Source: Bremerella volcania (GTDB lineage Bacteria > Planctomycetota > Planctomycetia > Pirellulales > Pirellulaceae). From it: 64,000 nt of DNA. Below the pieces are notes generated by a model. That model made no database searches and had not been told where the DNA came from. It saw only the letters and a program-made list of their open reading frames with translations. Location of the stretch: positions 682,001 through 746,000 of the forward strand of contig NZ_CP036289.1 in the NCBI RefSeq assembly GCF_007748115.1, written 5' to 3'. Below, one piece after another: positions 7,727 to 51,177 of this stretch (the stretch's first letter is position 1; every line of letters begins with the position of its first letter). The translations under genes were made by a program, and so were the position numbers.

Positions 7727-7913
7727 GGTGAGTTCTCGAAAAGCAGAGTTGAGAGTGGTGGCTCTGATTGTAGCCGAAACAAAACCAAAACACGAACCAC
7801 AAATTGTCGAGAAAACGAATCCTTGTCGAATCGACTGAGCCGCGAAATAATCGACTCGTGATTTTAGAGATTTTGCGGCCGTTGAAATCCTTTGCACTGG
7901 AATTGAGTTCGCT

Positions 7914-9719
7914 ATGCTTCGTACCTTTGGTCCCCGTCGTCTGGAAGATGGCAACGTTCTATTTACGGTTCATGCACCAGCGTGCGAGAAGCTTACTCTG
8001 CGGATTGAAGGGGACCATGAGCAAGAACTGCCAATGAACGCGACAGAGGATCGCGAGTTCACTGCTATCGCAAAGGTGCCTCCTGGGACGCGTTATTGGT
8101 TTCGTGTGCCGGACGGAAATCCTCGCCCAGATCCGGCCAGCCGATTTCAACCGGATGGTGTTCACGGCCCTTCGCAGTGGATCGATCCTGCCGCTTATTG
8201 TTGGAAGGATGAAGCATGGCACGGCCTGCCCAAGGATGAAATGATTCTGTACGAACTCCACATTGGCACGTTTACCAAGGAAGGAACGTACCTGGCCGCG
8301 ATCGATCGATTGGCAGAGCTCGTCGATCTTGGAGTTACCGCGATTGAAATCATGCCCTTAGCGCAGTCGGCGGGCAGATGGAACTGGGGCTACGACGGAA
8401 CGAACTTCTTCGCGCCGCGAAACACATTTGGCACACCGGACGAGCTGAAGCAACTGGTCGACGCGGCCCATCAACGCGAAATCGCGGTGATTCTGGACGT
8501 GGTTTACAACCACTTCGGTGCCGAGGGCAACTATCTGCATCCTTTCGGAGGCTATGTCTCGCCGAGGCATCAAACGGTGTGGGGAGATGCTCCGCACTTG
8601 GACGGCGATGGCAGTGCGATGATGCGAGATTATATTGTCGCGAACGTCCGGTACTGGATTGAAGAATTTCACTTCGATGGACTCCGGCTAGATGCGACGC
8701 ATTGTATTCTGGACGAATCGGAATCGCACATTGTCGCCGATGTTGGTAAAGCCTTCGCCGAGATGCAAGTGGAGTTAGGGCGTAAGCTGCATCTGATTGC
8801 CGAAAGCAACGTCTACGATCCGGAACTCCTGCGTCCGCTCGACGAAGGTGGATATGGCTTTGGTGCGATCTGGTGTGACGACTTTCTGCATGCAGTCGCC
8901 GCGGAGACGCGCCCCGACGAACATATGTCCGATCGTCGTTACCTCGCTGGCGAAGATATCGATATGGTTCTGCGCCGTGGGTATGTGTTTCGGGGAACGT
9001 TTGAAGAAAAACGACGACGCATACCACTGGCAGAAGATGACGCGGCGGCGGACTGGGAGTCGTTGATCTTTTCCATTCAGAATCACGACTTCATTGGCAA
9101 CCATCCCGATGGTCTGCGTTTGCATCAGGTCACCTCTCACGAAGCCCACCGCGCGGCGGCCGCTTTGATGTGTCTGATTCCGGCGATCCCCATGCTGTTC
9201 ATGGGAGAGGAGTTTGCCTGTGATAAGCCCTTCTACTTCTTTGCCGACTTTGGCGACGCACACCTTCGCGATGCGGTTGAGAAAGGGCGTCGTCGTGAGT
9301 ACCCGCAGCACGACTGGACCGACACGGTATCTTGTTTGTCCAAAGCAGCGTTTAGGAAATCGCAGATCGGCCCGCGAGAGAAAGGGAGTGAGGAGACGCT
9401 TCAGTGGTATCGTGAATTGATTCGTCTTCGCAAGACGTGGAAGAAACAGGGACTCTTCGCCGGCGCCAATCTGCAGGCACGTTGGGATGCACTAGCGCAC
9501 GCGGCCATTGTTCAATACCAGCATGCGGAGGACTCGGCGTTTGCCGTGATACGACTGGGAACTCCGAAAGAAGTAACAGGCGATCTGCATGTCGAGTTGT
9601 CGGGAAATGTTCTGCTTTCCCAGTGCGCACTACCTTTGGCGGATCAAACGAGTGCCTGGGCAATGGGTGCGTTGGGAGTGCTTGTTGGAGAAGGTCGGAT
9701 TCGCGGCATTTCGATTTAG
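7914..9719 (+). CDS. treZ: malto-oligosyltrehalose trehalohydrolase
   Basis: A 601-residue GH13 protein matching TreZ in length and domain order: an N-terminal CBM48-like beta-domain (about 1-95), then the (beta/alpha)8 barrel. Visible motifs are WNWGYDGTNFFAP (156-168), DVVYNHFG (195-202), FDGLRLDATH with the nucleophile Asp260, LIAESN with the general acid Glu297, and QNHDFIGN with Asp392. TreZ releases trehalose from maltooligosyltrehalose made by TreY, a cytoplasmic route from glycogen to trehalose. TreY is not in this window. The position next to sulfatases seems incidental. The gene ends shortly before a perfect 30-bp palindrome that likely terminates it. GlgB or GlgX is less likely, given the TreZ-like WNWGYDG block. 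Confidence 0.92.
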   Translation: MLRTFGPRRLEDGNVLFTVHAPACEKLTLRIEGDHEQELPMNATEDREFTAIAKVPPGTRYWFRVPDGNPRPDPASRFQPDGVHGPSQWIDPAAYCWKDEAWHGLPKDEMILYELHIGTFTKEGTYLAAIDRLAELVDLGVTAIEIMPLAQSAGRWNWGYDGTNFFAPRNTFGTPDELKQLVDAAHQREIAVILDVVYNHFGAEGNYLHPFGGYVSPRHQTVWGDAPHLDGDGSAMMRDYIVANVRYWIEEFHFDGLRLDATHCILDESESHIVADVGKAFAEMQVELGRKLHLIAESNVYDPELLRPLDEGGYGFGAIWCDDFLHAVAAETRPDEHMSDRRYLAGEDIDMVLRRGYVFRGTFEEKRRRIPLAEDDAAADWESLIFSIQNHDFIGNHPDGLRLHQVTSHEAHRAAAALMCLIPAIPMLFMGEEFACDKPFYFFADFGDAHLRDAVEKGRRREYPQHDWTDTVSCLSKAAFRKSQIGPREKGSEETLQWYRELIRLRKTWKKQGLFAGANLQARWDALAHAAIVQYQHAEDSAFAVIRLGTPKEVTGDLHVELSGNVLLSQCALPLADQTSAWAMGALGVLVGEGRIRGISI

Positions 9720-42992: not shown

Positions 42993-43895
42993 ATGCAATT
43001 GGAAGGGCTGGTCGCGGCCACGTTCACTCCTCTTACCGCTGAGGGAGAAATCAACCGCGAGCCGATCGGCGCGATGGTCGACGTGCTCGTTGCATCGGGC
43101 ATGGCTGGCCTATACGTCAACGGAAGCACCGGGGAAGGCGTTTCGCTGACCGGCAAGGAACGTCGGCAGATGGCCGAAGCGTTTGTCGAAGCGGCGTCCA
43201 GGCGGATTAAGGTCATTGTTCAGGTTGGGCATAACAGCGTGCGAGAAGCACGCGAACTGGCCGAACATGCTCAAGCGATCGGTGCCGATGCCATCAGTGC
43301 GACACCGCCCACTTACTTCAAGCCGGCGAGTATCGAACTGCTTCTCGATTCGTTACGAGAGATCATGCGCGGCGCGCCTGGGTTGCCGTTTTACTACTAT
43401 CACATCCCACGGATCACAGGCGTCGACTTCGATCTGCACGCACTGCTGACGCATGCGGCAAAGGATCTACCGGAACTCAATGGCGTGAAATACACGGCCC
43501 AGTCGATCCATGAGTTCCAGGCCTGTCGAGCACACTTTGCCGGCCAGTTCGATCTGCTATATGGCTGTGATGAAATGCTGCTTTGCGGTCTTGCCGCGGG
43601 AGCGAGCGGGGCCGTCGGTAGTACCTATAACTTCGCACCGGGACTCTATCGCCGCTTGATCGAAGCCTACCGACAAGGCGAAAACGAAGCGGCGCAAGAT
43701 CTACAATTGCTTTCCGTCGAAATGGTCCAAGCTTTCGTGCGCTATCCGGCATTGCCGGCTCAGAAAGCGATCATGGAAATGGTTGGCTTGCCGGTTGGTC
43801 CTCCGCGTTTGCCTTGGCGCGATTTGACGGCACAGGAGAAGAGAACTTTGGAAGGCGACTTGAAAAAGTTGGGGTTCTTTGAGTGGCGTGAGTAA
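42993..43895 (+). CDS. nanA: N-acetylneuraminate lyase
   Basis: A 300-residue member of the DapA/NanA aldolase family. It has the substrate carboxylate-binding loop GSTGEG (44-49), the tyrosine in FYYYHIP (Tyr136) and the Schiff-base lysine in NGVKYT (Lys166). YYYHIP and the late GAVGSTYN match sialic acid lyases better than DapA. It cleaves N-acetylneuraminate to N-acetylmannosamine and pyruvate in the cytoplasm. Length matches E. coli NanA (297) from this ATG; an ATG at 42912 overlapping the sialidase stop (ATGA) would add 27 residues and would give translational coupling, so it remains possible. The rest of the pathway (nanK, nanE, transporter) is not in the window. Confidence 0.9.
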   Translation: MQLEGLVAATFTPLTAEGEINREPIGAMVDVLVASGMAGLYVNGSTGEGVSLTGKERRQMAEAFVEAASRRIKVIVQVGHNSVREARELAEHAQAIGADAISATPPTYFKPASIELLLDSLREIMRGAPGLPFYYYHIPRITGVDFDLHALLTHAAKDLPELNGVKYTAQSIHEFQACRAHFAGQFDLLYGCDEMLLCGLAAGASGAVGSTYNFAPGLYRRLIEAYRQGENEAAQDLQLLSVEMVQAFVRYPALPAQKAIMEMVGLPVGPPRLPWRDLTAQEKRTLEGDLKKLGFFEWRE

Positions 43896-44154
43896 GGTTC
43901 AAGTCGCCAACTTCAAGTCAAAACGCATCCTCCGTGATTGAGTGGGCCCATTCTTTTTTCAAGAATGCTAAGTTTTCAGCGAACCATTTCCTGAGTGGCT
44001 CGTCTAAACACACAGACGTTTGAAACCCAAACCATTTAAGAGTGTGAGCTAATAACCTTCGATGTTGATCAAAAACCACAACGATCGAAATCAAAATGAA
44101 GCTGGTAAGCGATTGCCTGGGCAGGCAGGCAGCGGTTATGCGGCTCATCCTCTG
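43896..44154. other. intergenic region before the tRNA array
   Basis: It holds a small hairpin after nanA (CATTCTT/AAGAATG, 43949-43967), perhaps a weak terminator. The AT-rich stretch at about 44010-44100 is where a promoter for the array leader would lie; I cannot assign boxes with confidence. A 76-codon minus-strand frame here has no ribosome-binding site or family pattern. Confidence 0.4.
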
Positions 44155-44227
44155 CGCTTATGACTTAGGGAAACTATCCCTGACGGCTTTTCAAGCCCGG
44201 TGTCATAAGCGACGCCGGGCTTTTTTT
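44155..44227 (+). promoter_or_regulatory. leader with mutually exclusive stems and intrinsic terminator
   Basis: Structure A: CGCTTATGAC (44155-44164) pairs perfectly with GTCATAAGCG (44202-44211). It closes a three-way junction with hairpins AGGGA-AACTA-TCCCT and GGCTT-TTC-AAGCC. Structure B: AAGCCCGG (44193-44200) pairs with CCGGGCTT (44215-44222), followed by a T-run to 44227, a classic intrinsic terminator. B uses the 3' arm of one A hairpin and places the A closing strand in its 14-nt loop, so A and B exclude each other. This is the architecture of an attenuator or riboswitch, 22 nt before the first tRNA. The stems are seen; regulation is inferred. No known riboswitch class was recognised. 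Confidence 0.55.
44193..44227 (+). terminator. intrinsic terminator in front of the tRNA array
   Basis: The 8-bp GC-rich stem AAGCCCGG/CCGGGCTT with a 14-nt loop is followed by seven Ts. If fully active it would separate upstream transcription from the array; see the overlapping leader entry for the competing fold. Confidence 0.75.
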
Positions 44228-44248
44228 GTGCCCATATCCAAACTATTT

Positions 44249-44321
44249 GGCCCGTTCGACTTCGGGTGAGGTCCGCGGTCTTTCACACCGTGCAGGTTGA
44301 GTTCGACTCTCACACGGGCTG
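44249..44321 (+). tRNA. tRNA-Glu (TTC)
   Basis: A 73-nt cloverleaf: acceptor GGCCCGT/ACGGGCT (G1-T72 wobble), D-stem GACT/GGTC, anticodon arm GCGGT-CTTTCAC-ACCGT with anticodon TTC, five-base variable loop, T-loop TTCGACT, discriminator G. T-stem pair 49-65 is mismatched and position 14 is T, not A. No encoded CCA. First gene of the array. Confidence 0.85.
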
Positions 44322-44355
44322 CTTTGTGTCGCGAGAAGAGATGGTGCATTAGTAG

Positions 44356-44427
44356 GGTAGTCGAGGACTGGTTGTCCATGCCTGACTGATACTCAGGCCG
44401 CGCTGAGTTCGATTCCCAGGGCTACCA
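44356..44427 (+). tRNA. tRNA-Ile (GAT), unusual D-arm
   Basis: A 72-nt gene with acceptor GGTAGTC/GGCTACC, anticodon arm CCTGA-CTGATAC-TCAGG (anticodon GAT), T-loop TTCGATT and discriminator A. The D-arm is GGAC-TGGTT-GTCC with only five loop bases, followed by three linker bases instead of one, and T8 is missing. One T-stem pair (52-62) is mismatched. No encoded CCA. Confidence 0.75.
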
Positions 44428-44496
44428 CTGATCAGGAAAAGGAAAAGTCACATGAACGATGCAAATCGCTGTAAACGCATAGCACAAACTCAAATT

Positions 44497-44568
44497 GAGG
44501 TTGTGGTGTAACGGCAGCATCCCCGACTTTTAATCAGGTGGGCGTAGGTTCGAATCCTACCGGCCTCA
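44497..44568 (+). tRNA. tRNA-Lys (TTT)
   Basis: A 72-nt cloverleaf: acceptor GAGGTTG/CGGCCTC, D-arm GTGT-AACGGCA-GCAT, anticodon arm CCCGA-CTTTTAA-TCAGG (one mismatch, 29-41), T-arm GTAGG-TTCGAAT-CCTAC, discriminator A. The D-arm type (TGTAACGGCAGC) recurs in the tRNA-Lys (CTT) and tRNA-Trp genes of the array. No encoded CCA. Confidence 0.88.
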
Positions 44569-44577
44569 CTTTTTATA

Positions 44578-44650
44578 CGGCGCGTAGCTCAGTGGTGAGA
44601 GCGACGTCCTTATAAGACGTGAGTCGTGGGTTCAAACCCCACCGCTCCGA
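44578..44650 (+). tRNA. tRNA-Ile (TAT), rare anticodon
   Basis: A 73-nt cloverleaf: acceptor CGGCGCG/CGCTCCG with a 4-69 C-T mismatch, D-arm GCTC-AGTGGTGA-GAGC, anticodon arm ACGTC-CTTATAA-GACGT (anticodon TAT), perfect T-arm GTGGG-TTCAAAC-CCCAC, discriminator A. The next bases are CCA, unlike other genes here. UAU anticodons are uncommon in bacteria, which usually read AUA with a lysidine-modified CAU tRNA. Confidence 0.85.
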
Positions 44651-44666
44651 CCAAACCAAACAACAT

Positions 44667-44738
44667 GGGACCGAGGTGTTACGGCAGCATCCCTGGCTCT
44701 TAACCAGGCGGGTGAAGGTTCGAGTCCTTCCGATCCCA
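44667..44738 (+). tRNA. tRNA-Lys (CTT)
   Basis: A 72-nt cloverleaf: acceptor GGGACCG/CGATCCC (5-68 C-A mismatch), D-arm GTGT-TACGGCA-GCAT, perfect anticodon stem CCTGG/CCAGG with loop CTCTTAA (anticodon CTT), T-arm GAAGG-TTCGAGT-CCTTC, discriminator A. No encoded CCA. Confidence 0.88.
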
Positions 44739-44750
44739 CTTTACCAACAA

Positions 44751-44822
44751 GCACTGGTCGTCCAGCGGCAAAGACACCGCATTCGTAATGCGGCTACGAG
44801 GGTTCGAGTCCCTCCCGGTGCT
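44751..44822 (+). tRNA. tRNA-Thr (CGT)
   Basis: A 72-nt cloverleaf with fully paired acceptor GCACTGG/CCGGTGC, D-stem GTC/GAC, anticodon arm CCGCA-TTCGTAA-TGCGG (anticodon CGT), T-arm GAGGG-TTCGAGT-CCCTC, discriminator T. No encoded CCA. A well-formed gene. Confidence 0.92.
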
Positions 44823-44874
44823 CTTCGAGTCTCCATAGACTCGCCGTTCTTTGACAATCGAAAACAAACTATCA

Positions 44875-44945
44875 GCGCCCATGATGTAGCGGCAGCCTAC
44901 TGCCTTGCCATGGCGGATGTGTGGGTTCGACTCCCACTGGGCGCT
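44875..44945 (+). tRNA. tRNA-Gly (GCC)
   Basis: A 71-nt cloverleaf: acceptor GCGCCCA/TGGGCGC fully paired, anticodon arm CTGCC-TTGCCAT-GGCGG (anticodon GCC), four-base variable loop, T-arm GTGGG-TTCGACT-CCCAC, discriminator T. The D-stem is weak (ATGT/GCCT with one mismatch). No encoded CCA. Confidence 0.88.
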
Positions 44946-44955
44946 CTAAATCATT

Positions 44956-45031
44956 CAGGGTGTGGGAAAGCTTGGTCTAATCCGCATACTTCGGGAGTAT
45001 GAGAACGCTGGTTCGAATCCAGCCATCCTGA
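44956..45031 (+). tRNA. tRNA-Pro (CGG)
   Basis: A 76-nt cloverleaf: acceptor CAGGGTG/CATCCTG, D-stem GGA/TCC with a long loop containing GG, anticodon arm CATAC-TTCGGGA-GTATG (anticodon CGG), T-arm GCTGG-TTCGAAT-CCAGC, discriminator A. C1-G72 and G37 fit proline tRNAs. No encoded CCA. Confidence 0.92.
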
Positions 45032-45041
45032 CTTTTAACTT

Positions 45042-45116
45042 TGTGGTGGGTCCTGTGTTGGTACGGGAAGGCGGCTGTTAACCGTTTCGTCGCAGGTTCG
45101 ATTCCTGCCTCCACAG
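45042..45116 (+). tRNA. tRNA-Asn (GTT)
   Basis: A 75-nt cloverleaf: acceptor TGTGGTG/CTCCACA (6-67 T-T mismatch), D-stem TCC/GGA (10 is T, and position 8 is G rather than T), anticodon arm GGCGG-CTGTTAA-CCGTT (anticodon GTT), T-arm GCAGG-TTCGATT-CCTGC, discriminator G as expected for Asn. No encoded CCA. Confidence 0.85.
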
Positions 45117-45128
45117 CTTTAAGATTTT

Positions 45129-45200
45129 GTGCTCTTGGCCGAGCGGCAAAGGTTCCAGGCCTCCAACCTGGCGAGGCGGGTTCGATTCCCGCAGAGCACT
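45129..45200 (+). tRNA. tRNA-Gly (TCC) with C33
   Basis: A 72-nt cloverleaf with perfect acceptor GTGCTCT/AGAGCAC, D-stem GCC/GGT, anticodon stem CCAGG/CCTGG, four-base variable loop, T-arm GCGGG-TTCGATT-CCCGC, discriminator T. The anticodon loop is CCTCCAA, so position 33 is C instead of the nearly universal T. The rest is intact, so this is a specific change, not general decay. Confidence 0.88.
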
Positions 45201-45269
45201 CCTTTCCAGAAAGAAACGATGAATTAGAGCGAACCTTGCTCGAAACGAAGAGTCTCTTTCTGGCAGCAC

Positions 45270-45344
45270 TGCGAGGTAGACGCTGTTGGTAGTATCGCCT
45301 GGCTCTGAACCAGGAGGTCGTTGGTTCGATTCCAACCCTCGCAA
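45270..45344 (+). tRNA. tRNA-Gln (CTG)
   Basis: A 75-nt gene: acceptor TGCGAGG/CCTCGCA fully paired, anticodon arm CCTGG-CTCTGAA-CCAGG (anticodon CTG), T-arm GTTGG-TTCGATT-CCAAC, discriminator A. The D-stem is weak (GAC against ATC, one mismatch) with a GG-containing loop. No encoded CCA. Confidence 0.87.
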
Positions 45345-45356
45345 CCTTTTTGAAAT

Positions 45357-45428
45357 ACGTCTCTGGTGTAACGGCAGCACTACTGGTTCCAACCCAGTCA
45401 GGTCAGGGTTCAAATCCTTGGGGGCGTG
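45357..45428 (+). tRNA. tRNA-Trp (CCA)
   Basis: A 72-nt cloverleaf: acceptor ACGTCTC/GGGGCGT with several G-T pairs, D-arm GTGT-AACGGCA-GCAC, anticodon arm ACTGG-TTCCAAC-CCAGT (anticodon CCA), T-arm CAGGG-TTCAAAT-CCTTG, discriminator G as required for Trp. No 3' CCA is encoded. Confidence 0.88.
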
Positions 45429-45443
45429 CTTAGTTCAACCAAT

Positions 45444-45516
45444 AGTCCTGTGGCCCAGCGGCGACGGCAACTCTCTTACAAAGAGTCGATCGGGGGTTCG
45501 AGTCCCTCCAGGACTA
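45444..45516 (+). tRNA. tRNA-Val (TAC)
   Basis: A 73-nt cloverleaf: acceptor AGTCCTG/CAGGACT fully paired, D-stem GCC/GGC, anticodon arm ACTCT-CTTACAA-AGAGT (anticodon TAC), T-arm GGGGG-TTCGAGT-CCCTC, discriminator A. A1-T72 is unusual for bacterial Val tRNAs, which normally begin with G. No encoded CCA. Confidence 0.9.
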
Positions 45517-45520
45517 CTTT

Positions 45521-45680
45521 ACTGGGGCGCTGGCGGCATCATGCCGCCAGTGTGCCCTCGCCAAGCTCTTCGCGGCTCCGAAAAACGACTGTCGTCGTTG
45601 TTTCGAAGTGCCATCCTTGGCACGCGTAAGCTGCGATCCTGGCGATTTTTTTCAATAGTATTTCGCGAGTCATCGCGCAT
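45521..45680. repeat. hairpin-rich insert inside the tRNA array
   Basis: This 160-nt gap holds three strong inverted repeats: CTGGCGGCA-TCA-TGCCGCCAG (45529-45549), an imperfect CGAAA..CGAC/CGTCG..TTTCG hairpin near 45577-45606, and GTGCC-ATCCTT-GGCAC (45608-45623). It has no open gene or tRNA. The layout resembles a dispersed palindromic element (REP- or MITE-like); its copy number elsewhere in the genome is unknown. Confidence 0.45.
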
Positions 45681-45685
45681 CAAAA

Positions 45686-45758
45686 GTTCTCGTGGAGCAG
45701 CGGAGTGCTCGCTTGCCTGTCACGCAAGAGATCGCCGGTTCGAATCCGGTCGGGAACG
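45686..45758 (+). tRNA. tRNA-Asp (GTC)
   Basis: A 73-nt cloverleaf: acceptor GTTCTCG/CGGGAAC, D-arm GAGC-AGCGGAGT-GCTC-type, anticodon arm CTTGC-CTGTCAC-GCAAG (anticodon GTC), T-arm GCCGG-TTCGAAT-CCGGT, discriminator G as in Asp tRNAs. No encoded CCA. A well-formed gene. Confidence 0.92.
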
Positions 45759-45770
45759 CTTTTTAAGGAT

Positions 45771-45845
45771 GGCACGCTACGCCAATAAGGCAGAGCGACC
45801 TGGCTCAAACCCAGGTGGATGGGGGTTCGAATCCCTCGCGTGCCA
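45771..45845 (+). tRNA. tRNA with Leu anticodon (CAA) but short variable loop
   Basis: A 75-nt cloverleaf: acceptor GGCACGC/GCGTGCC fully paired, D-stem CGC/GCG, anticodon arm CCTGG-CTCAAAC-CCAGG (anticodon CAA), T-arm GGGGG-TTCGAAT-CCCTC, discriminator A. The variable loop is only TGGAT (class I), whereas bacterial Leu tRNAs have a long variable arm (class II). It may be a Leu tRNA of phage-like form or have another identity. Confidence 0.8.
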
Positions 45846-45858
45846 CTGAAATGAAATA

Positions 45859-45945
45859 GGGTTGTGCTCCTCGCAGCGGCCTGTAAAGCCGCCGTCATAA
45901 AAGAAGCGAGGTGGGCGACGAGAGGTTCAATTCCTTCACGGCCCA
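45859..45945 (+). tRNA. tRNA-Tyr (GTA) lacking a D-arm
   Basis: An 87-nt gene: acceptor GGGTTGT/ACGGCCC, anticodon arm GCGGC-CTGTAAA-GCCGC (anticodon GTA), long 28-base variable region closed by CGTC/GACG, T-loop TTCAATT, discriminator A. Only ten bases lie between acceptor and anticodon stem, too few for a D-arm. Six of them, CCTCGC, are complementary to GCGAGG in the variable region, suggesting an extended stem in place of the D-arm. T-stem pair 49-65 is mismatched. Confidence 0.65.
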
Positions 45946-45975
45946 CTCAATGGACTGCATTCGGAAAGACGAAGT

Positions 45976-46488
45976 GTGCCCAAGCTTAAGTGTTCGCGCG
46001 GTTACCGATACATCAAAGAGTTGGGAGGAGCGATACGGCGTCAGTCGATTAGCTTCGCTGCAACCTGGTTGGTGGAGTCCGATTTGATTCGCGGTCGAGT
46101 ACTCGACTATGGGTGCGGATTTGGATTCGATGCGGATTACTTCGGATGGGACGCGTTCGATCCCTACTATCGGCCAACTCCCCCACAAGGTGGTTACGAT
46201 ACGATCGTGTGTAATCACGTTTTGAATATGCTTACACGCTCGTCGCGAAACCAAGTGCTTTCAGCGATTGAGCAGCAATTGGATTCCGATGGTACGGCCT
46301 GGTTGATCGTACCACGAAACATTCCCCCTCGGGGAAAGATTGGCTTGCGAAAGCGGATTCAGAACTATGTGACCCTCGATCTCCCGTCGGTGCTGGTCAA
46401 TGAGAAGCTGGAGATTTACCAGTTCGACCAAAAAGCTTTGATCGTTGATCAAACCGATGAGATCGAACACCGAATTTCCGAGCGATAG
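45976..46488 (+). CDS. small class I SAM-dependent methyltransferase-like protein in the tRNA array
   Basis: A 170-residue protein. Motif I of Rossmann-fold methyltransferases is clear: RVLDYGCGFGFDADYFG (41-57) for SAM binding. GGYDTIVCNHVLNML (72-86) corresponds to motif IV, and WLIVPRN fits a later strand. It starts at GTG 45976, 30 nt after the tRNA-Tyr gene; GGAAAG lies upstream and no ATG occurs before motif IV. It ends 8 nt before the tRNA-Leu (TAG) gene. Its N-terminus is basic (CSRGYRYIKELGGAIRR), suiting nucleic-acid binding. By its location it may modify the array tRNAs; that is inference, and a DNA or small-molecule methyltransferase is equally compatible. Confidence 0.75.
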   Translation: MPKLKCSRGYRYIKELGGAIRRQSISFAATWLVESDLIRGRVLDYGCGFGFDADYFGWDAFDPYYRPTPPQGGYDTIVCNHVLNMLTRSSRNQVLSAIEQQLDSDGTAWLIVPRNIPPRGKIGLRKRIQNYVTLDLPSVLVNEKLEIYQFDQKALIVDQTDEIEHRISER

Positions 46489-46496
46489 AACAACCT

Positions 46497-46579
46497 GGCC
46501 AAGTGGCGGAATCAGAAGACGCGCGACGCTTAGAACGTCGTGCCTGGAGGGCGTGGGAGTGCCAGTCTCCCCTTGGCTA
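46497..46579 (+). tRNA. tRNA-Leu (TAG) with altered D- and T-loops
   Basis: An 83-nt class II gene: acceptor GGCCAAG/CTTGGCT (G1-T72), D-stem GCG/CGC, anticodon arm CGACG-CTTAGAA-CGTCG (anticodon TAG), variable arm with GCC/GGC stem, T-stem GGGAG/CTCCC, discriminator A. The D-loop (GAATCAGAAGA) lacks the conserved GG and the T-loop is TGCCAGT instead of TTCRANT, so both partners of the elbow contact have changed while all stems are kept. Confidence 0.75.
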
Positions 46580-46592
46580 CTTAACTTTTTGA

Positions 46593-46661
46593 CGCGGGTG
46601 AGCCAGTGCTCATTCGGGCCTCATAAGCCTGGACGGTCGGGTGCGACTCCCGGACCCGCTA
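46593..46661 (+). tRNA. tRNA-Met-like (CAT), minimal D-arm
   Basis: A 69-nt gene: acceptor CGCGGGT/ACCCGCT with an unpaired C1-T72, D-arm GAGC-CAGT-GCTC with only four loop bases and no GG, anticodon arm CGGGC-CTCATAA-GCCTG (anticodon CAT), T-stem TCGGG/CCCGG with loop TGCGACT (G55), discriminator A. The mismatched 1-72 pair recalls initiator tRNA, but the initiator GGG/CCC anticodon-stem pairs are not all present. Elongator Met, initiator or Ile2 cannot be decided. Confidence 0.7.
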
Positions 46662-46668
46662 CTTTTTT

Positions 46669-46739
46669 GGTCTGTAGGTGTTCTGGCGGCACACGTCCGT
46701 GGTAAGGACGCGGATCGGGTTCGATTCCCGAACGGACCT
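46669..46739 (+). tRNA. tRNA-Thr (GGT)
   Basis: A 71-nt cloverleaf: acceptor GGTCTGT/ACGGACC, D-stem GTG/CAC, anticodon arm CGTCC-GTGGTAA-GGACG (anticodon GGT), four-base variable loop, T-arm TCGGG-TTCGATT-CCCGA, discriminator T. Position 8 is A rather than T. No encoded CCA. Confidence 0.87.
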
Positions 46740-46751
46740 TGTTAACGGTAT

Positions 46752-46823
46752 GGGCCTGCATGCCGATGGAGGCGACTGATCCTTGCAAGATCGGTGCGAT
46801 CGGTTCGACTCCGATCAGGTCCA
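46752..46823 (+). tRNA. tRNA-Ala (TGC)
   Basis: A 72-nt cloverleaf: acceptor GGGCCTG/CAGGTCC with a G3-T70 pair, the alanine identity element; D-stem GCC/GGC; anticodon arm TGATC-CTTGCAA-GATCG (anticodon TGC); T-arm ATCGG-TTCGACT-CCGAT; discriminator A. No encoded CCA. Confidence 0.9.
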
Positions 46824-46835
46824 CTTTCCATTCAA

Positions 46836-46906
46836 GGGCTGATGGTCCAAAGGGACGACACTGCTCTGGCGGGGCAGAAATCTGGGTTCGATTCCCAGTC
46901 GGTCCA
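46836..46906 (+). tRNA. tRNA-Ala (GGC)
   Basis: A 71-nt cloverleaf: acceptor GGGCTGA/TCGGTCC with the alanine G3-T70 pair, D-stem GTC/GAC, anticodon arm CTGCT-CTGGCGG-GGCAG (anticodon GGC), four-base variable loop, T-arm CTGGG-TTCGATT-CCCAG, discriminator A. Position 38 is G, uncommon. No encoded CCA. Confidence 0.88.
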
Positions 46907-46962
46907 CTGAGGTGATCACATAGTGTGATCGCCAAGTATTTGTTTTTGAAGGAGACTCGACG

Positions 46963-47763
46963 ATGGACGCTCATGTTATCGAGCGGCAGTTCGAGCGAAT
47001 GGGCGGACGGGTAAAGCTCGTTCCGGCCCGCGGTCGCAACGTACGAAGCGACGTCTCCATCGACGTTGGTCACGACGCCGAGGGAGAGTTCTTCGAGATC
47101 TCGCTCGGGTCCCAGGCGGAACCCGACTTGCGCGTGATCGATGTACGGCCTGATATTCGCCACTTGCTGCTCTTGACGGAACAAGAGGACGGAAAGCACA
47201 AGTTCCTGTGCGGTCATGACGAACGCCATTGGTTCGTCGCTGCCGTGCCGGAGCGGGCAACCGTCTCCAACGTAATCACCGCCTTCGACGCACTGAAGCC
47301 ACGTGATGTTCACATCCGTGAGCGTCAGTTGAAGGTAAAGCCGAAGAAGCGGAATCGCCGGAAGAACGATGCGTTCGTTCGCCAAGGCGAATGGTTCTTT
47401 GTGCCTGTCCAGCCGTGGCAGCGCATCGATCTGCGGTGGGTACTGCGGAACGAGCCGATTAATCGCGGCGGCGGAAAGCCTCACATCTGTGAAGAGCTGG
47501 TCCGCCAAGGCGGCGAATTGGTTTACGTAAGTCCGCAACATCCCAACGGATTGACCGAGCGGCAATACGAAAAGCTGATCAGTAAGAAGCCGAAGCTGAA
47601 GAAGCTTTCGTGGATTACGCAGCGTCGTAACCCAGGCGTTTTCGTCCGCGGCAAGGTTCGCCATGCCGATCACAAGACGATCTGCCTGGATGGATGGCAT
47701 CAAGTGATCATGAATACCGAGACCGAATCGGTAGCCATGCGTCACGTGGCGTTTATCGACTAG
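46963..47763 (+). CDS. unknown 266-residue protein inside the tRNA array
   Basis: A protein of 266 residues with a strong ribosome-binding site (AAGGAG, 8 nt before ATG 46963). It has no signal peptide or membrane helix. The first ~95 residues are mostly beta (SDVSIDVGHD, EFFEISLG, LRVIDVRPDIRHLLLLTE). A middle basic segment, VKPKKRNRRKN (near 124-134), suits nucleic-acid binding. Conserved-looking blocks FLCGHDERHWFVAAV, GEWFFVPVQPW, GGKPHICEELV and MRHVAFID contain several histidines and a few cysteines, perhaps a metal site. I do not recognise the family. Its isolated place among tRNA genes suggests a role tied to tRNAs or to the mobility of the array, which is inference. Confidence 0.8.
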   Translation: MDAHVIERQFERMGGRVKLVPARGRNVRSDVSIDVGHDAEGEFFEISLGSQAEPDLRVIDVRPDIRHLLLLTEQEDGKHKFLCGHDERHWFVAAVPERATVSNVITAFDALKPRDVHIRERQLKVKPKKRNRRKNDAFVRQGEWFFVPVQPWQRIDLRWVLRNEPINRGGGKPHICEELVRQGGELVYVSPQHPNGLTERQYEKLISKKPKLKKLSWITQRRNPGVFVRGKVRHADHKTICLDGWHQVIMNTETESVAMRHVAFID

Positions 47764-47771
47764 ACGCGTAT

Positions 47772-47863
47772 GGGTGGCCGGGGCCGCAGCCCTGGGGATT
47801 GATTGCCGAGTCGAGTCCACGGAAGTGGAGGGGACTCCTCGGCATAGGGCCCTGGCCGCCCCA
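47772..47863 (+). ncRNA. unclassified structured RNA with tRNA-like closing stem
   Basis: The end stem is GGGTGGCC (47772-47779) with GGCCGCCC (47854-47861), eight pairs. Inside are a five-pair hairpin GGGGC-CGCA-GCCCT (47780-47793) and a long arm made of TGCCGAG/CTCGGCA enclosing GAGTCC/GGACTC (47804-47844). Size (92 nt), spacing and the 8-nt distance from the preceding gene match the array pattern, but no anticodon arm and no TTC-type T-loop can be drawn. It is not tRNA-Sec by my reading. Folding is seen; transcription is inferred. Confidence 0.5.
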
Positions 47864-47867
47864 TTTT

Positions 47868-47941
47868 GGTGACTGAAGTGTACTCGGTAAGCACGCCTGC
47901 CTGTGAAGCAGGAAGAAGGAGTTCGAATCTCCTCAGTTACC
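47868..47941 (+). tRNA. tRNA-His (GTG)
   Basis: A 74-nt cloverleaf including the extra 5' G (G-1) opposite discriminator C73, the histidine identity pair. Acceptor GTGACTG/CAGTTAC, D-stem GTG/CAC, anticodon arm CCTGC-CTGTGAA-GCAGG (anticodon GTG), T-arm AGGAG-TTCGAAT-CTCCT. Position 8 is A. No encoded CCA. Confidence 0.92.
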
Positions 47942-47948
47942 CCTCCAT

Positions 47949-48021
47949 GGCCTGTGAGTGTGCTGGACTGGCATAGCAGCTTCCGAAGCTGTCGGACCAG
48001 GTTCGATTCCTGGACAGGCTA
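47949..48021 (+). tRNA. tRNA-Arg (CCG)
   Basis: A 73-nt cloverleaf: acceptor GGCCTGT/ACAGGCT (G1-T72), D-stem GTG/CAT, anticodon arm GCAGC-TTCCGAA-GCTGT (anticodon CCG), T-arm CCAGG-TTCGATT-CCTGG, discriminator A. Strongly similar to the next gene in the D- and T-arms, suggesting a duplication. No encoded CCA. Confidence 0.88.
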
Positions 48022-48028
48022 CTGTTTT

Positions 48029-48101
48029 GACCTCGGAGTGTGATGGATTGGCACGCGAGCCTGCGACGCTCGTAGACCAGGTTCGATTCCTGGCGAGGGC
48101 A
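48029..48101 (+). tRNA. tRNA-Arg (GCG), rare anticodon
   Basis: A 73-nt cloverleaf: acceptor GACCTCG/CGAGGGC (2-71 A-G mismatch), D-stem GTG/CAC, anticodon arm CGAGC-CTGCGAC-GCTCG (anticodon GCG), T-arm CCAGG-TTCGATT-CCTGG, discriminator A. Bacteria normally read CGU/CGC with an ACG (inosine) tRNA. Its 3' part from 48070 is repeated at 49338. Confidence 0.85.
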
Positions 48102-48133
48102 TTTGCTTACAGTGATTTCAAATACGAAGTCAG
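48070..48133 (+). repeat. 64-bp direct repeat, left copy (att-like)
   Basis: It covers the 3' third of tRNA-Arg (GCG) plus 32 nt of flanking DNA and is repeated at 49338-49401 with 62 of 64 identical positions. A repeat of a tRNA 3' end bracketing an insert is the usual trace of tyrosine-integrase insertion into a tRNA gene. Confidence 0.75.
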
Positions 48134-48138
48134 CATCT

Positions 48139-48266
48139 AGGCTGGGTCGAGAACCAGCGAAAGAGAATCGGCGGATAGCAGCTCCCCGACTTCAACCGAC
48201 GCGATACGACGAACCTCCGATCGGAATGACACCCTGGATAGATATCGCTGGGTCTCGACCCAGCCT
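48139..48266. repeat. MITE-like segment with 22-bp inverted ends
   Basis: The ends 48139-48160 and 48245-48266 are inverted copies matching at 21 of 22 positions; each end also contains a shorter internal palindrome (CTGGGTC/GACCCAG type). The 128-nt unit has no coding capacity. It may be a miniature mobile element or a long-range hairpin. Confidence 0.45.
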
Positions 48267-48443
48267 GCGTTGCTTCCACGGGGGCCGCTTCAAAAAAATG
48301 GCGCGCGCACTATCTTCAGGCGGCACCAGGCTGGTATATCTAGATCATGCCCGGAGACGTTCCCCGTTTACCTTCTTTTTGTCGCGTGGTTTCTCGAGCA
48401 ACTGGCTCGCACGCGGTGGTTGTTTTCTCCCAGAAAGTTCGCC

Positions 48444-49253
48444 ATGTCCTCGTCCCCTGCACAACCAAAAACCAGCGATCAGCGCTCGACCGAGCGCAGG
48501 TCGCAGGTCGTGGTGCGCGCCGGCAGGCACTATGTGTGCTCGGCCTGTGGGACGTGGGTTGAGATTCCGGCTGACGTCGTGGGTCAGTGGGTCATCGCGG
48601 TCGATTCTTCACCACAGCCAGACCAGCCAAGCCAGGGCGATCCGCCCCAGGAAGACGCGGAAAAAGAGGGTGCCTCAGTCGACAAGCCGCAAGTTCCCGC
48701 AAACACGCCGCGATGGGCATCCTCATGGGTTTCTCCTAATGGCGGTGGTGGTCGCGCTACGTCTGCTTCGTGTTTCGCGCCGATCACCCAGCGGCCGAAA
48801 CCGGCAAGGCCCCGACGTCCCAAGACGCCACTGCGCGACAGCTACACCGGCCAAACGATCGACGGTCTGATCGTTCCCGCGGCCGCGAAGCTCGATCGCG
48901 CGCTTTCCTGGGTTACTTTTCACCTGACGGTGCTCGACCGGCAAGGGACCGAATTCAATCGGCTCAGAAAGCTACTCAAGAAACAACGCGGGCAACACGG
49001 CAGGGCAGCGACCGACCATGCAATCCTGGACCGAGCTGATCTCCAGAAACATTCACGGGTGCCACGCCCAAGTCTTCTTGGGCGTGCCAGGAGATCGTCC
49101 GTACGTGCCCGGCAAAGTGATGCCCACGCACACGTTAGCATGGCATCCCAAGCGATCGGAGTTCTAACTCGCTGGCATCGAAAGTCTGCTACGCCATCGT
49201 GTCAGCGCCGGCTGCGCACTTGGAAACGCATCCAAGGACGAGGGCCTCCATAA
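48444..49253 (+). CDS. unknown protein with CxxC motif in the tRNA-bracketed insert
   Basis: A 269-codon frame. Residues 20-50 (VVVRAGRHYVCSACGTWVEIPADVV) look like half of a zinc ribbon with one CxxC. The middle is proline/acid-rich, and residues 150-195 (DSYTGQTIDGLIVPAAAKLDRALSWVTFHLTVLDRQ) look like a genuine helical domain. The last ~75 residues are arginine/serine-rich and overlap another frame at 49018-49167, so the true C-terminus may be nearer 49020 through a frameshift. No ribosome-binding site is strong. Family unknown. It lies entirely within the 1.27-kb insert and is probably cargo of it. Confidence 0.5.
   Translation: MSSSPAQPKTSDQRSTERRSQVVVRAGRHYVCSACGTWVEIPADVVGQWVIAVDSSPQPDQPSQGDPPQEDAEKEGASVDKPQVPANTPRWASSWVSPNGGGGRATSASCFAPITQRPKPARPRRPKTPLRDSYTGQTIDGLIVPAAAKLDRALSWVTFHLTVLDRQGTEFNRLRKLLKKQRGQHGRAATDHAILDRADLQKHSRVPRPSLLGRARRSSVRARQSDAHAHVSMASQAIGVLTRWHRKSATPSCQRRLRTWKRIQGRGPP
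49018..49167 (+). CDS. possible 49-residue protein overlapping the previous gene
   Basis: A short frame (MQSWTELISRNIHGCHAQVF..., ending WHPKRSEF) in the +1 frame relative to the gene at 48444. Its composition (aromatic, Gly/Pro, balanced charge; VFLGVPGDRPYVPGKVMPTH) looks more protein-like than the arginine-rich frame it overlaps. It could be a separate small gene or the real continuation of the upstream gene after a frameshift. Family not recognised. Confidence 0.35.
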   Translation: MQSWTELISRNIHGCHAQVFLGVPGDRPYVPGKVMPTHTLAWHPKRSEF

Positions 49254-49272
49254 TCTAACGGCAGACAACATG
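49244..49272 (+). pseudogene. possible tRNA 5'-half remnant
   Basis: The stretch from GCCTCCATAATC through the next 17 bases resembles a tRNA 5' half with the array-type D-arm (TCT-AACGGC-AGA), but no matching anticodon or T-arm follows. It is a probable decayed or truncated tRNA gene. Confidence 0.3.
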
Positions 49273-49337
49273 AAGTTTCTTCCCACGGCTCTCGGTAGTT
49301 TTCGTGGCCGCCGGTTCGTCCATGTGCGCGATAGTGG

Positions 49338-49401
49338 TCGTAGACCAGGTTCGATTCCTGGCCAGGGCATTTGCTTACAGTGATTTCAAATACGAAATCA
49401 G
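49338..49401 (+). repeat. 64-bp direct repeat, right copy (tRNA 3' fragment, att-like)
   Basis: The right copy of the repeat at 48070-48133. It carries only the 3' third of a tRNA (end CCAGGGC plus A); no 5' part is present upstream. Its last 27 bases are also the final eight codons and stop of the minus-strand cytochrome gene at 49375, so the left copy contains a duplicate of that gene's end. Confidence 0.75.
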
Positions 49402-51177
49402 ATCGGTCACTTCGCTATCGGTCAGGGCCCGCGTACCGGAGACCTCTTCCGGAGAATGATAGTCCACAAGGACTTCCTCCAGGCTGCCAGCTCGGCCATC
49501 GTGGAGAAAACGTACTTTGCGATAGATGCCGGTTAAGCTCGGCGTGTTGTATCCTTCGTATTCATCCTCTTGCGAGCCAAGTCCCACGTCGTGGATTTTG
49601 CCGTCGGTGAAGTACCTTCCGCTGTGGCAACTGGAACAATTGGCATCGGCACTTTCGAAGACTTTTTGTCCGCGATTCGCCGCCGCGCTTAACGAACCAT
49701 CTTCTTCGCGAAACGGATTGGGCGGAGTGCGACGGGTTCTCAGGTAGGCCAATATTGCGTCGGCTTCTCGGGGACTCGCAGGCCGTCCTTGCATCGTTGT
49801 CGTGAACGACTTGTGCATGGCATCGTGGAGATCTTCTTGCCAACCATGCCAGGTCCAGGGGCCTGTCTTGTCGACGTGTTCCAGCGGCAAGACGGTCTTC
49901 ATCGTTAAAGCAGAACCATCATTCCAGGTATCCATGGCTTTGGAATTCACGCCGCCGTTGTAATGGCACGTGTGGCAGCTGTACCACTGATCGAGACTTC
50001 TACGAGCATCGTAGAAAAGCTCTTCTCCGTGACGAACCTGGGAAGGACGAGGACGCTTGCCCAAGGGGATATGACGAAGGACGTGTCGATCTTCAATGTC
50101 GACCACCTGGATCACGTCTCGCAGGTAATCGGCGACATAAACGGTGCGATCATCCTGAGCCATGGCGAGCCCCATGGGACGGCCGCCAAGGTCCATGCGT
50201 TGGAAGAGGTCGCGGTCCCGCATCAGCTTCGGGTCTATCAGATCGCCTGGGCCGCCGACTCCTTCCCAAGGTAAGTCATCCTTTCGATAGATTAAAAGGT
50301 CGTGCGAACCGGATGCTGAGACGACCAGTCGTTTGTTGGAACGGTTCATGACAATCCCATGGGGATCGGCGACTGCCGTGCCTGGCACGTCGAGCGTGAT
50401 GGCTTCGCGGTATTCCTGCTTGTCGAGGCGAACACGGCCGATGCGACTTCCCAGTACCCAGCCACGTCGGATGTTGTCTCGATTGATCGGGTTGCTGCGA
50501 TAAATCATCCAGGGGAAGTAGACGTATTTTCCATCAGCCGAACATTGCATGTGGCCAATATTGATCCCGCCGGAAAGTTTCGACGAGAAATCGACCTCCC
50601 CCTTGATTAGGTCTATGACGACGATCTTACTTTCGCCACTGCAGCCGACTGCCAGTCGCTCGCCGTTTGGGGACACGGCAAGATAGCGGGGCCAGGCACC
50701 CACCGAGAACTTGCGAGCGACCTTGGCTTCCTTCAGGTCGAGTTGGGCGACTTCGCCTGTCGCGACGAGGCCCACGTAAGCGGTCTGACCATCGGGAGCA
50801 ACGGCCAGGCCTGTCGGTTCAAAGCCGACGTCAATCGATTGTGTTTCGCGCAGCTTTCCCCCTTCTACCTGAATGAGGGAGATCTGGCCGCTGTAAGCAC
50901 AGCTGACAAGTACGTATTTTCCGTCCAGGCAGGCCATAATGGAGGTGGGATGATCACCGCAGGGAATTTCATCGAGAATTTCGCCACTTTCGGTCTCGAT
51001 CAGGCTGACGCTGTCGGATGCTTGATTGGCGACAACTAACCAAGTGTCGTTCTTCATCAAAACGACATCGACCGGCGAGCGGTATTCGGCCGTAAGGGGA
51101 GGGGCCGGAACGGCTAGCACCGGGACACTTGCGACGCAGAGGGCAATGCCGAGGTAGATCAGATGGCGGAACTTCAT
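49375..51177 (-). CDS. secreted beta-propeller protein with two c-type heme sites
   Basis: A 600-residue protein with a signal peptide (about 1-22). Residues 30-370 form a YVTN/YncE-like seven-bladed beta-propeller (repeats such as PTGLAVAPDGQTAYVGL and GRPMGLAMAQDDRTVYVADYL). The C-terminal third is a di-heme cytochrome resembling cytochrome c peroxidase/MauG: CHTCH (Cys401, Cys404, His405) and CSSCH (Cys514, Cys517, His518). It should act in the periplasm in redox chemistry; whether it is a peroxidase is unknown. The last eight codons lie in the 64-bp direct repeat next to the tRNA array. It is divergent from the thioredoxin-like gene at 51419. Confidence 0.88.
   Translation of the reverse strand: MKFRHLIYLGIALCVASVPVLAVPAPPLTAEYRSPVDVVLMKNDTWLVVANQASDSVSLIETESGEILDEIPCGDHPTSIMACLDGKYVLVSCAYSGQISLIQVEGGKLRETQSIDVGFEPTGLAVAPDGQTAYVGLVATGEVAQLDLKEAKVARKFSVGAWPRYLAVSPNGERLAVGCSGESKIVVIDLIKGEVDFSSKLSGGINIGHMQCSADGKYVYFPWMIYRSNPINRDNIRRGWVLGSRIGRVRLDKQEYREAITLDVPGTAVADPHGIVMNRSNKRLVVSASGSHDLLIYRKDDLPWEGVGGPGDLIDPKLMRDRDLFQRMDLGGRPMGLAMAQDDRTVYVADYLRDVIQVVDIEDRHVLRHIPLGKRPRPSQVRHGEELFYDARRSLDQWYSCHTCHYNGGVNSKAMDTWNDGSALTMKTVLPLEHVDKTGPWTWHGWQEDLHDAMHKSFTTTMQGRPASPREADAILAYLRTRRTPPNPFREEDGSLSAAANRGQKVFESADANCSSCHSGRYFTDGKIHDVGLGSQEDEYEGYNTPSLTGIYRKVRFLHDGRAGSLEEVLVDYHSPEEVSGTRALTDSEVTDLISYLKSL

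Follow-up and report, generated by a model that had tools for sequence, protein, structure and literature searches.

A probable reserve tRNA array in Bremerella volcania and its proposed control by ribosome-mediated attenuation

Arrays of surplus transfer RNA (tRNA) genes occur in several phyla, for the most part without an established purpose. The array of the planctomycete Bremerella volcania raises the question of when such a set is expressed and what it serves. The window analysed here covers 64,000 nucleotides (nt), from 682001 to 746000 of contig C1, in its 6.5 Mb single-contig genome, and congener, family, order and class are used below as ranks of kinship to this host genome. In the window, ARAGORN detected 22 tRNA genes on the + strand (44249-48102). 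Because a tRNA-Tyr and a tRNA-Met gene missed by the program are conserved in related loci, the total of 24 genes on one strand for 17 amino acids, proposed in an earlier interpretation made without database searches (the sequence-only reading), stands, and the gene list likewise lacks Ser, Phe and Cys, as that reading had noted. The array also encodes an orphan protein of 266 amino acids (P266; 46963-47763, + strand), recognized as an open reading frame (ORF) with homologues in related arrays. We consider it probable that ribosome-mediated transcription attenuation controls the array, which would serve as a reserve tRNA set; the array appears, and is predicted, to be switched on only when protein synthesis falters. 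The leader attenuator narrows down the possible function of the array, since it suggests induction under this condition, and the second tRNA set looks like an emergency translation kit, not junk.

The leader upstream of the array

Upstream of the first tRNA gene we detected a leader ORF, an antiterminator and a terminator (44062-44227), none of which, like the clusters B and C described below, was part of the sequence-only reading. The leader ORF has 33 codons (MLIKNHNDRNQNEAGKRLPGQAGSGYAAHPLRL; 44062-44163, + strand), and its TGA stop is located inside the 5' strand of the antiterminator, GCTTATGAC (44156-44164, + strand). This strand pairs with GTCATAAGC (44202-44210, + strand), which lies in the 5' arm and loop of an intrinsic terminator with a stem of 12 base pairs (bp) and a T tract (44193-44227, + strand), 21 nt before the first tRNA. 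The pairings of terminator and antiterminator are mutually exclusive. The ORF keeps 33 codons without indels in all five congeneric loci examined, and 1 of 500 shuffles gave an antiterminator as good as the one observed. In the leader of cluster B, GCGTTGACT pairs with AGTCAACGC. Neither a T-box nor any other cis-regulator of Rfam 15 scored above its curated threshold between 43000 and 50000, and the only sub-threshold matches at the leader were sX11 (24.1 of 70 bits) and anti-hemB (20.9 of 49.5 bits).

Attenuators of the trp/his type combine a leader ORF that terminates within the antiterminator strand with a terminator and an antiterminator that exclude each other. A ribosome that has reached the stop covers the antiterminator, so that the terminator can form; if the ribosome stalls upstream or is absent, the antiterminator stays free. 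For the array, transcription would start upstream of the leader ORF, and a ribosome finishing the 33 codons at the TGA would cover the antiterminator strand, so that the terminator would fold, RNA polymerase would stop before the first tRNA and the array would be off. We infer that with a stalled or absent leader ribosome the antiterminator would pair with the 5' arm of the terminator, the polymerase would read through and the array would be made; its tRNAs would be charged by the existing synthetases and used in translation, improving survival under translational stress. The proposed triggers are shortage of amino acids or tRNAs, tRNA cleavage and ribosome-targeting drugs.

At the level of sequence, this leader ORF with its mutually exclusive, covarying pairings recurs before arrays across the class. 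A scan of 19 upstream regions (18 places) detected a terminator-like hairpin within 400 nt of the first tRNA in 12. The scan missed cluster C (twice), L110, L113, L114, L082 and L086, and at the last two a hairpin with one unpaired base is visible by eye. The pattern CGGTGTCAN{2,14}CGRGCYTTTTT gave a single match in each of 8 genomes out of 15 and none in the remaining 7, and its reversed control gave 0 matches, which argues against a common genome-wide terminator that is not specific to arrays. Seven of the eight matches are at known arrays and the eighth is in G087 (2242564). This G087 copy of the terminator (L152, ~1501-1528) stands about 180 kilobases (kb) from the main array of that genome, before a relic tRNA-Phe that was read by eye and in which ARAGORN detected no tRNA. 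Four of the seven genomes without the pattern (G013, G037, G264 and G080) have variant leaders according to the covariance model described below.

Eighteen leaders from 17 genomes, six of them from the host genus, were picked by hand. In all 18, the frame closed by the TGA in the antiterminator is open for at least 35 codons (745 of 1920 random TGAs have at least 30 open codons), and seven have a 33-codon ORF starting with ATG. The spacing from antiterminator to terminator is 31-41 nt, with 53 nt in one leader, and the antiterminator of G048 is a helix of 13 bp. When the upstream 60 nt of single loci were shuffled, the observed helix was reached in 0-14 of 500 shuffles in 12 of the 18 loci. 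Pairing was counted on a 24-column alignment of 15 distinct rows from the 18 leaders, separate from alignment A2, in which the antiterminator of cluster B is off by two columns and G087 is left out. Antiterminator cells were paired in 83.3% of cases against a shuffled mean of 72.3% (0/500 shuffles as high), falling to 25-55% when the partner was slid. The covariation score was 0.360 compared with 0.178 (0/500), and 19 cells had changed on both sides compared with 8.1 (0/500). For transcripts ending before the 3' arm, the predicted folds gave the antiterminator a probability (P) of at least 0.91 in 16 of the 18 leaders (0.66 in G451 and 0.06 in G087). With a ribosome footprint placed at the stop, the predicted P of the antiterminator was 0 in 18/18 and that of the terminator at least 0.98, and for the free full-length leader the terminator had P of 0.61 or less in 8/18.

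A covariance model (R1) built from 17 leaders was run on 100 genomes of the family and 393 genomes sampled from the phylum, and matched 49 of the former (E ≤0.01) and 42 of the latter (E ≤0.001). The host genome has two matches, before arrays A (the window array) and B, both of them training rows. Beyond the class there are four matches, all weak (E 5e-5 to 1e-3). The 39 retrieved R1-matched loci outside the training set form a held-out set, for which weak matches were mostly not retrieved; it comes from the host genus and its family, from further families of the order and from a single other family of the class. A tRNA on the same strand follows within the retrieved stretch (up to 1.5 kb) in 36 of these loci, the exceptions being L169, whose contig ends 84 nt past the match, and L179 and L204, in which no tRNA was detected. 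An antiterminator of at least 7 bp was found in 35/39, with 7.5 (19%) expected from shuffled 5' parts; it is the best among several TGAs tried, and the shuffled control was scanned in the same way. An ATG ORF of 18-53 codons ends in the antiterminator in 35/39 (264/1920 for random TGAs), and 31 loci have both features. No more than 10 of 200 shuffles score as well in 33 of the 39 loci. The held-out antiterminators are not fully independent because the R1 training rows contain antiterminator sequence. Among 28 genomes of our own selection, several of which are also in the training set, a leader match was found in 17/17 genomes with at least 60 tRNA matches, compared with 5/11 of those with fewer (P about 0.001).

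Several results weigh against attenuation. No such leader precedes cluster C or the secondary array pieces L110, L113 and L114, and L179 and L204 match the leader but are not followed by detected tRNAs. The antiterminator is not clearly better than shuffles in five of the hand-picked loci (34, 37, 38, 53 and 77 of 500 as good) and in G087 (412/500), nor in the held-out L175, L177 and L207 (26, 118 and 125 of 200). In the alignment, the number of pairs with any double change (6 compared with 4.5; 72/500) and of further pair types (15 compared with 12.7; 60/500) is not clearly above shuffles. For the free full-length leader, the terminator has a predicted equilibrium P of 0.89-1.00 in 10/18, including the window leader with 1.00; equilibrium thus favours the terminator without a ribosome in these ten, and a switch there would have to act kinetically, during transcription. 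The dN/dS (ratio of nonsynonymous to synonymous substitutions) of the leader ORF is not low: it is 0.39-0.62 among G000, G043 and G327 and reaches about 1.3 in comparison with G090, and few changes underlie these values. No sigma-70-like promoter was detected in 43890-48300. In G090, the site and the leader persist but P266 and most of the tRNAs are gone, so the array is dispensable there. Finally, no run of a single control codon for a regulated amino acid, as in the trp/his type, is present: runs of three or more equal residues occur in only 4 of 50 leader peptides and involve four different residues.

These 50 peptides (15 from training and 35 from held-out leaders; median length 33) do share residues, with R or L at position -2 in 49, L at -3 in 39, N at -10 in 24 and P at -4 and at -7 in 22 each. 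Such common residues, and the arrest-peptide attenuators known for macrolide resistance genes, would fit an attenuator that is real but tuned to a specific signal, such as one codon family or a drug or metabolite sensed by way of the nascent peptide, so that the array would answer only to that signal. We regard this as rather unlikely. The shared last residues overlap the antiterminator, the peptide changes freely within the genus, and the few runs differ in their residue. We favour a leader that would sense the general progress of translation.

A second set beside a complete main set

The family RF00005 gave 70 matches in the genome, and every matched place outside the window array was retrieved and analysed with ARAGORN. 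We detected 45 canonical tRNA genes outside the array, mostly single and covering all 20 amino acids, so the array is supernumerary to a complete housekeeping set. It follows that the array does not hold the genome's only copies of these tRNAs, Ile-TAT and Arg-GCG excepted. Divergent tRNAs were also found in two smaller clusters, cluster B near C1:3314592-3315243 (Phe, Glu, Ser-TGA, three Leu and Ser-GCT) and cluster C near C1:4618655-4618904 (Cys and Ser-TGA). These supply the Phe, Ser and Cys lacking in array A, and the three together cover 20 amino acids when tRNA-Met and tRNA-Tyr are included. Only Ile-TAT and Arg-GCG of the 29 cluster anticodons called by ARAGORN are missing from the main set; these two are also the only exceptions to the duplication of array anticodons elsewhere in the genome, a check that the sequence-only reading had suggested.

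Ile-TAT is the top-scoring array gene. Its absence from the main set is in line with a supplement to codon usage for recently acquired genes, mainly through tRNA-Ile-UAU, as the main text of PMC4807772 proposed on the strength of codon usage. We consider this very improbable as the purpose of the array, since it leaves unexplained a set that mostly repeats main-set anticodons and a leader that is off by default.

No dedicated second set of synthetases was detected: PF00133 matched four ORFs and PF00587 four, without surplus, in a search of these two families in which identity was judged by ORF size. The discriminator bases match those of the main set for most amino acids (exceptions include Glu, Phe, Gln, Arg-GCG and one Ser), and for this reason charging by the housekeeping synthetases is the simplest view.

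Compared with G043 and G327, the tRNA genes differ by 4.1% and 3.6% substitutions, the spacers by 26.1% and 24.5% and P266 by 8.6% and 7.9%, and the dN/dS of P266 is 0.031 (G043) and 0.020 (G327). By these comparisons, the array tRNAs and P266 are under purifying selection. The similarity of array genes to those in arrays of other genera exceeds that to the main-set gene of their own genome in 28 of 29 comparisons (best match) or 23 of 29 (median), and on this basis the arrays of other genera share ancestry with the window array. The proposal of a selected second set, distinct from the main set, is therefore borne out by the 45 canonical genes elsewhere, by tRNAs conserved six- to sevenfold over spacers and by their proximity to arrays of foreign genera.

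The array lies between the same flanking genes in the congeners G043, G327 and G090, at least the downstream flank is common to G287, and flanking sequence aligns at ~80-84% identity in congeners. The P266 gene is present in 24/100 genomes of the family and in 25/393 sampled from the phylum; with respect to transfer or descent, this patchy distribution in the family contrasts with the same flanks in three congeners. The phage or integrative-element context suggested by the sequence-only reading found no support: tblastn of P266 against phage and plasmid collections was empty and the flanks are shared among congeners, with no systematic integrase search of the flanks. Some arrays are broken up (L110 and L111 in G028; L112, L113 and L114 in G097), over two and three places respectively, without P266 and with pieces that are largely complementary in tRNA content.

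Published work reads planctomycete clusters as decaying tRNA genes that were acquired horizontally and can be dispensed with; the main text of PMC4807772 calls them degenerate, often acquired by horizontal gene transfer and perhaps dispensable. The loss of most of the array in G090, the patchiness of P266 and the changed tRNA cores described below (more unpaired stem positions and losses of U8 and A14) would agree with decay. We nevertheless find it quite improbable, given the difference between tRNA genes (3.6-4.1%) and spacers (24.5-26.1%), the P266 dN/dS of 0.02-0.03, the conservation of the odd Met and Tyr genes across genera, a leader that covaries across the class, and clusters A, B and C that still cover 20 amino acids.

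Unusual tRNAs, P266 and the layout of the arrays

Core positions were counted from ARAGORN structure calls in 45 main-set and 31 array genes (22 from the window and 9 from clusters B and C). U8 is present in 42/45 main-set genes compared with 20/31 array genes, A14 in 36/45 compared with 15/31 and A21 in 44/45 compared with 21/31, whereas the D-loop GG, U33, the T-loop TTC and A58 are preserved in 30-31 of the 31 array genes. Unpaired stem positions rise from 0.49 per gene in the main set to 1.61 in the array. The description of the array genes as breaking general tRNA rules with intact stems is thus partly right: U8 and A14 are often lost, and the stems are not kept in full.

The two genes missed by ARAGORN, recognized by conservation and predicted fold, depart further. 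The non-canonical tRNA-Tyr-GTA (45859-45945, + strand) lacks a normal D-arm; in its predicted minimum-energy fold (z-score only -1.0), CCTCGC pairs with GCGAGG of the variable region, and this helix has a G-U pair in G287. In 19 related loci searched, it was found at full length in six and truncated in one, with two weak matches. In the non-canonical tRNA-Met-CAT (46593-46661, + strand), the D-loop is four bases long and the T-loop lacks U55. Relatives are present in 15 of the same 19 loci, where changes preserve the stems, and identity is 97.5-100% in three of four congeners and 86% in G287, with diverging flanks. A second CAT tRNA of a different type stands beside the odd tRNA-Met in some related arrays (L082:9265-9350, L084, L085 and L097). 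If functional, the Tyr and Met genes would widen the known shapes of bacterial tRNAs.

P266 occupies a position between the same tRNAs in related arrays. It had no match in Pfam, PHROGs or NCBIfam, and a PDB fold search with its model (mean predicted local distance difference test, pLDDT, 83.2) returned 171 matches at E ≤10 but none at E ≤0.001. At least six tRNAs stand beside P266 in 10 genera of the family (within the stretches retrieved), and outside the family arrays accompany it in G451, G264 and G406, with a gene order that looks alike by eye. In G287 and G451, a relative with 34% identity is found at the same place. Other homologues stand without detected tRNAs; across these 26 loci outside arrays, no neighbour family recurred beyond two or three loci, save two clusters resembling ORFs that overlie P266.

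The cargo of related arrays is diverse. An RNA ligase (PF09414) is encoded in the arrays of G327 and G287 (L138 and L139), by position between tRNA-Leu-TAG and tRNA-Met, where the window array has no room for it. A GTPase similar to EF-Tu (PF00009, with domain 2 PF03144) lies inside the array of G406 (L141, ~7300-8480), as judged from the first 300 of 391 residues. The array of G075 contains an endonuclease V (similar ORF in G086) and a Band 7 protein (similar ORFs in G013 and G086), and that of G048 an HNH nuclease (similar ORF in G451).

The RNA ligases and the endonuclease V, together with the altered tRNA cores, would suit a counter-defence kit, in which the array replaces tRNAs cut by the anticodon nucleases of phages, toxins or competitors and the collapse of translation is the trigger. 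This is compatible with the attenuator, and replacement of cut tRNAs is possible as one trigger among those proposed. As the explanation of the array we judge it unlikely: no RNA ligase is present in the window array, and resistance to anticodon nucleases is not evident because the array anticodons and U33 are as in normal tRNAs. The divergent D-arms and the orphan companion protein could also be taken to indicate a non-translational use of the charged tRNAs, for example to donate amino acids in the synthesis of peptides or the cell wall. We give this explanation hardly any weight: the clusters cover all 20 amino acids, anticodons and T-loops are kept, and a partial scan of the arrays recognized no enzyme that uses such donors.

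With 24 genes in 3.85 kb, the window array fits the definition of a tRNA array unit quoted in PMC5966550 (at least 20 tRNAs and at least 2/kb). All its genes are on the + strand, and its tRNA genes other than Tyr and Met were called by ARAGORN. It begins with Glu-TTC, Ile-GAT, Lys-TTT, Ile-TAT, Lys-CTT, Thr-CGT, Gly-GCC, Pro-CGG, Asn-GTT and Gly-TCC (44249-45202), followed by Gln-CTG, Trp-CCA, Val-TAC, Asp-GTC and Leu-CAA (45270-45846). After tRNA-Tyr comes an ORF of 170 amino acids (45976-46488, + strand), for which a profile scan gave a weak methyltransferase match just below the Pfam cut-off; it is present in the arrays of G327 and G287 but not in that of G043, which also lacks the first tRNA-Glu. 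tRNA-Leu-TAG (46497-46580) precedes tRNA-Met, and Thr-GGT, Ala-TGC and Ala-GGC (46669-46907) lie between tRNA-Met and P266. A structured hairpin RNA (47772-47862, + strand; fold z-score -2.7) is located between P266 and tRNA-His, with a similar sequence in G043 and a partial one in G327; it was not found in G287 or G090. The array ends with His-GTG, Arg-CCG and Arg-GCG (47869-48102). Between tRNA-Val and tRNA-Asp, a multi-hairpin segment (45518-45660) has a very stable predicted fold (z-score -6.4). The two embedded protein genes of the sequence-only reading are thus accounted for by the 170- and 266-residue ORFs, while its single unclassified RNA has two candidates and may, judged by predicted folding, be either the hairpin at 47772-47862 or the stronger-folding segment at 45518-45660. 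Neither has a match in Rfam 15 (43000-50000).

The 3' end of tRNA-Arg-GCG is directly repeated over 64 nt (97%; 48070-48133 and 49338-49401), and the two copies bracket a 1.27 kb insert that is absent in G043 and has related sequence in G327. By its sequence, this repeat-flanked insert resembles an att-like scar at the last array tRNA. Within it we detected a 22-nt inverted repeat (48139-48160 and 48245-48266; 95% complementary). Elsewhere in the window, Pfam matches include Planctomycete cytochrome C with its neighbours PSCyt2, PSD1 and DUF1501.

Comparison with known systems

A conserved switch tied to leader translation would give a concrete and cheaply testable answer to the timing of array expression. 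More tentatively, and with somewhat more doubt than confidence, we suggest a class-wide emergency programme, in which the leader ORF would act as a general sensor of translation capacity gating a divergent second decoding set (with the D-armless tRNA-Tyr and the elbow-less tRNA-Met). Together with the accessory P266 and, in some species, an RNA ligase or EF-Tu paralogue, this set would sustain translation when housekeeping tRNAs are damaged or depleted. If true, cryptic arrays would become a tractable model for a genome that splits its tRNAs into daily and emergency sets.

Among the titles listed from the open-access literature, with most subscription journals outside this scope, we found none that describes a tRNA array controlled by an attenuator. 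The window leader has the anatomy of trp/his attenuators. Unlike them, it gates tRNA genes and not biosynthetic enzymes, and it does so without a run of a single control codon.

The planctomycete clusters of PMC4807772, described there as degenerate, with one canonical tRNA-Ile-UAU, and as present in many planctomycetes, are very likely the same kind of locus as the window array. The main text of that study describes no leader and regards the clusters as perhaps dispensable; the present analysis adds selection, the leader, P266 and the odd Tyr and Met genes. The tRNA array units of Mycobacterium, phages and plasmids, as described in the excerpted text of PMC5966550, have at least 20 tRNAs at high density and embedded protein genes such as HNH endonucleases. 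The window array is similarly dense, with protein genes inside, whereas the Mycobacterium units are often on plasmids or phages, and the same excerpt mentions no leader or attenuator. The trn operon of Anabaena sp. PCC 7120, according to the corresponding excerpt of PMC10272220, is a 26-tRNA array on a megaplasmid that is normally silent, repressed at its promoter by the ribbon-helix-helix protein TrcR and induced by translation-targeting antibiotics. The window array resembles it as a supernumerary tRNA array whose induction is here predicted from sequence, and differs in being chromosomal, in its leader-ORF attenuator and in its embedded orphan protein. The array is therefore of a known kind, the supernumerary tRNA arrays, and what is new is the leader-ORF attenuator, its class-wide conservation, the two odd conserved tRNAs and P266.

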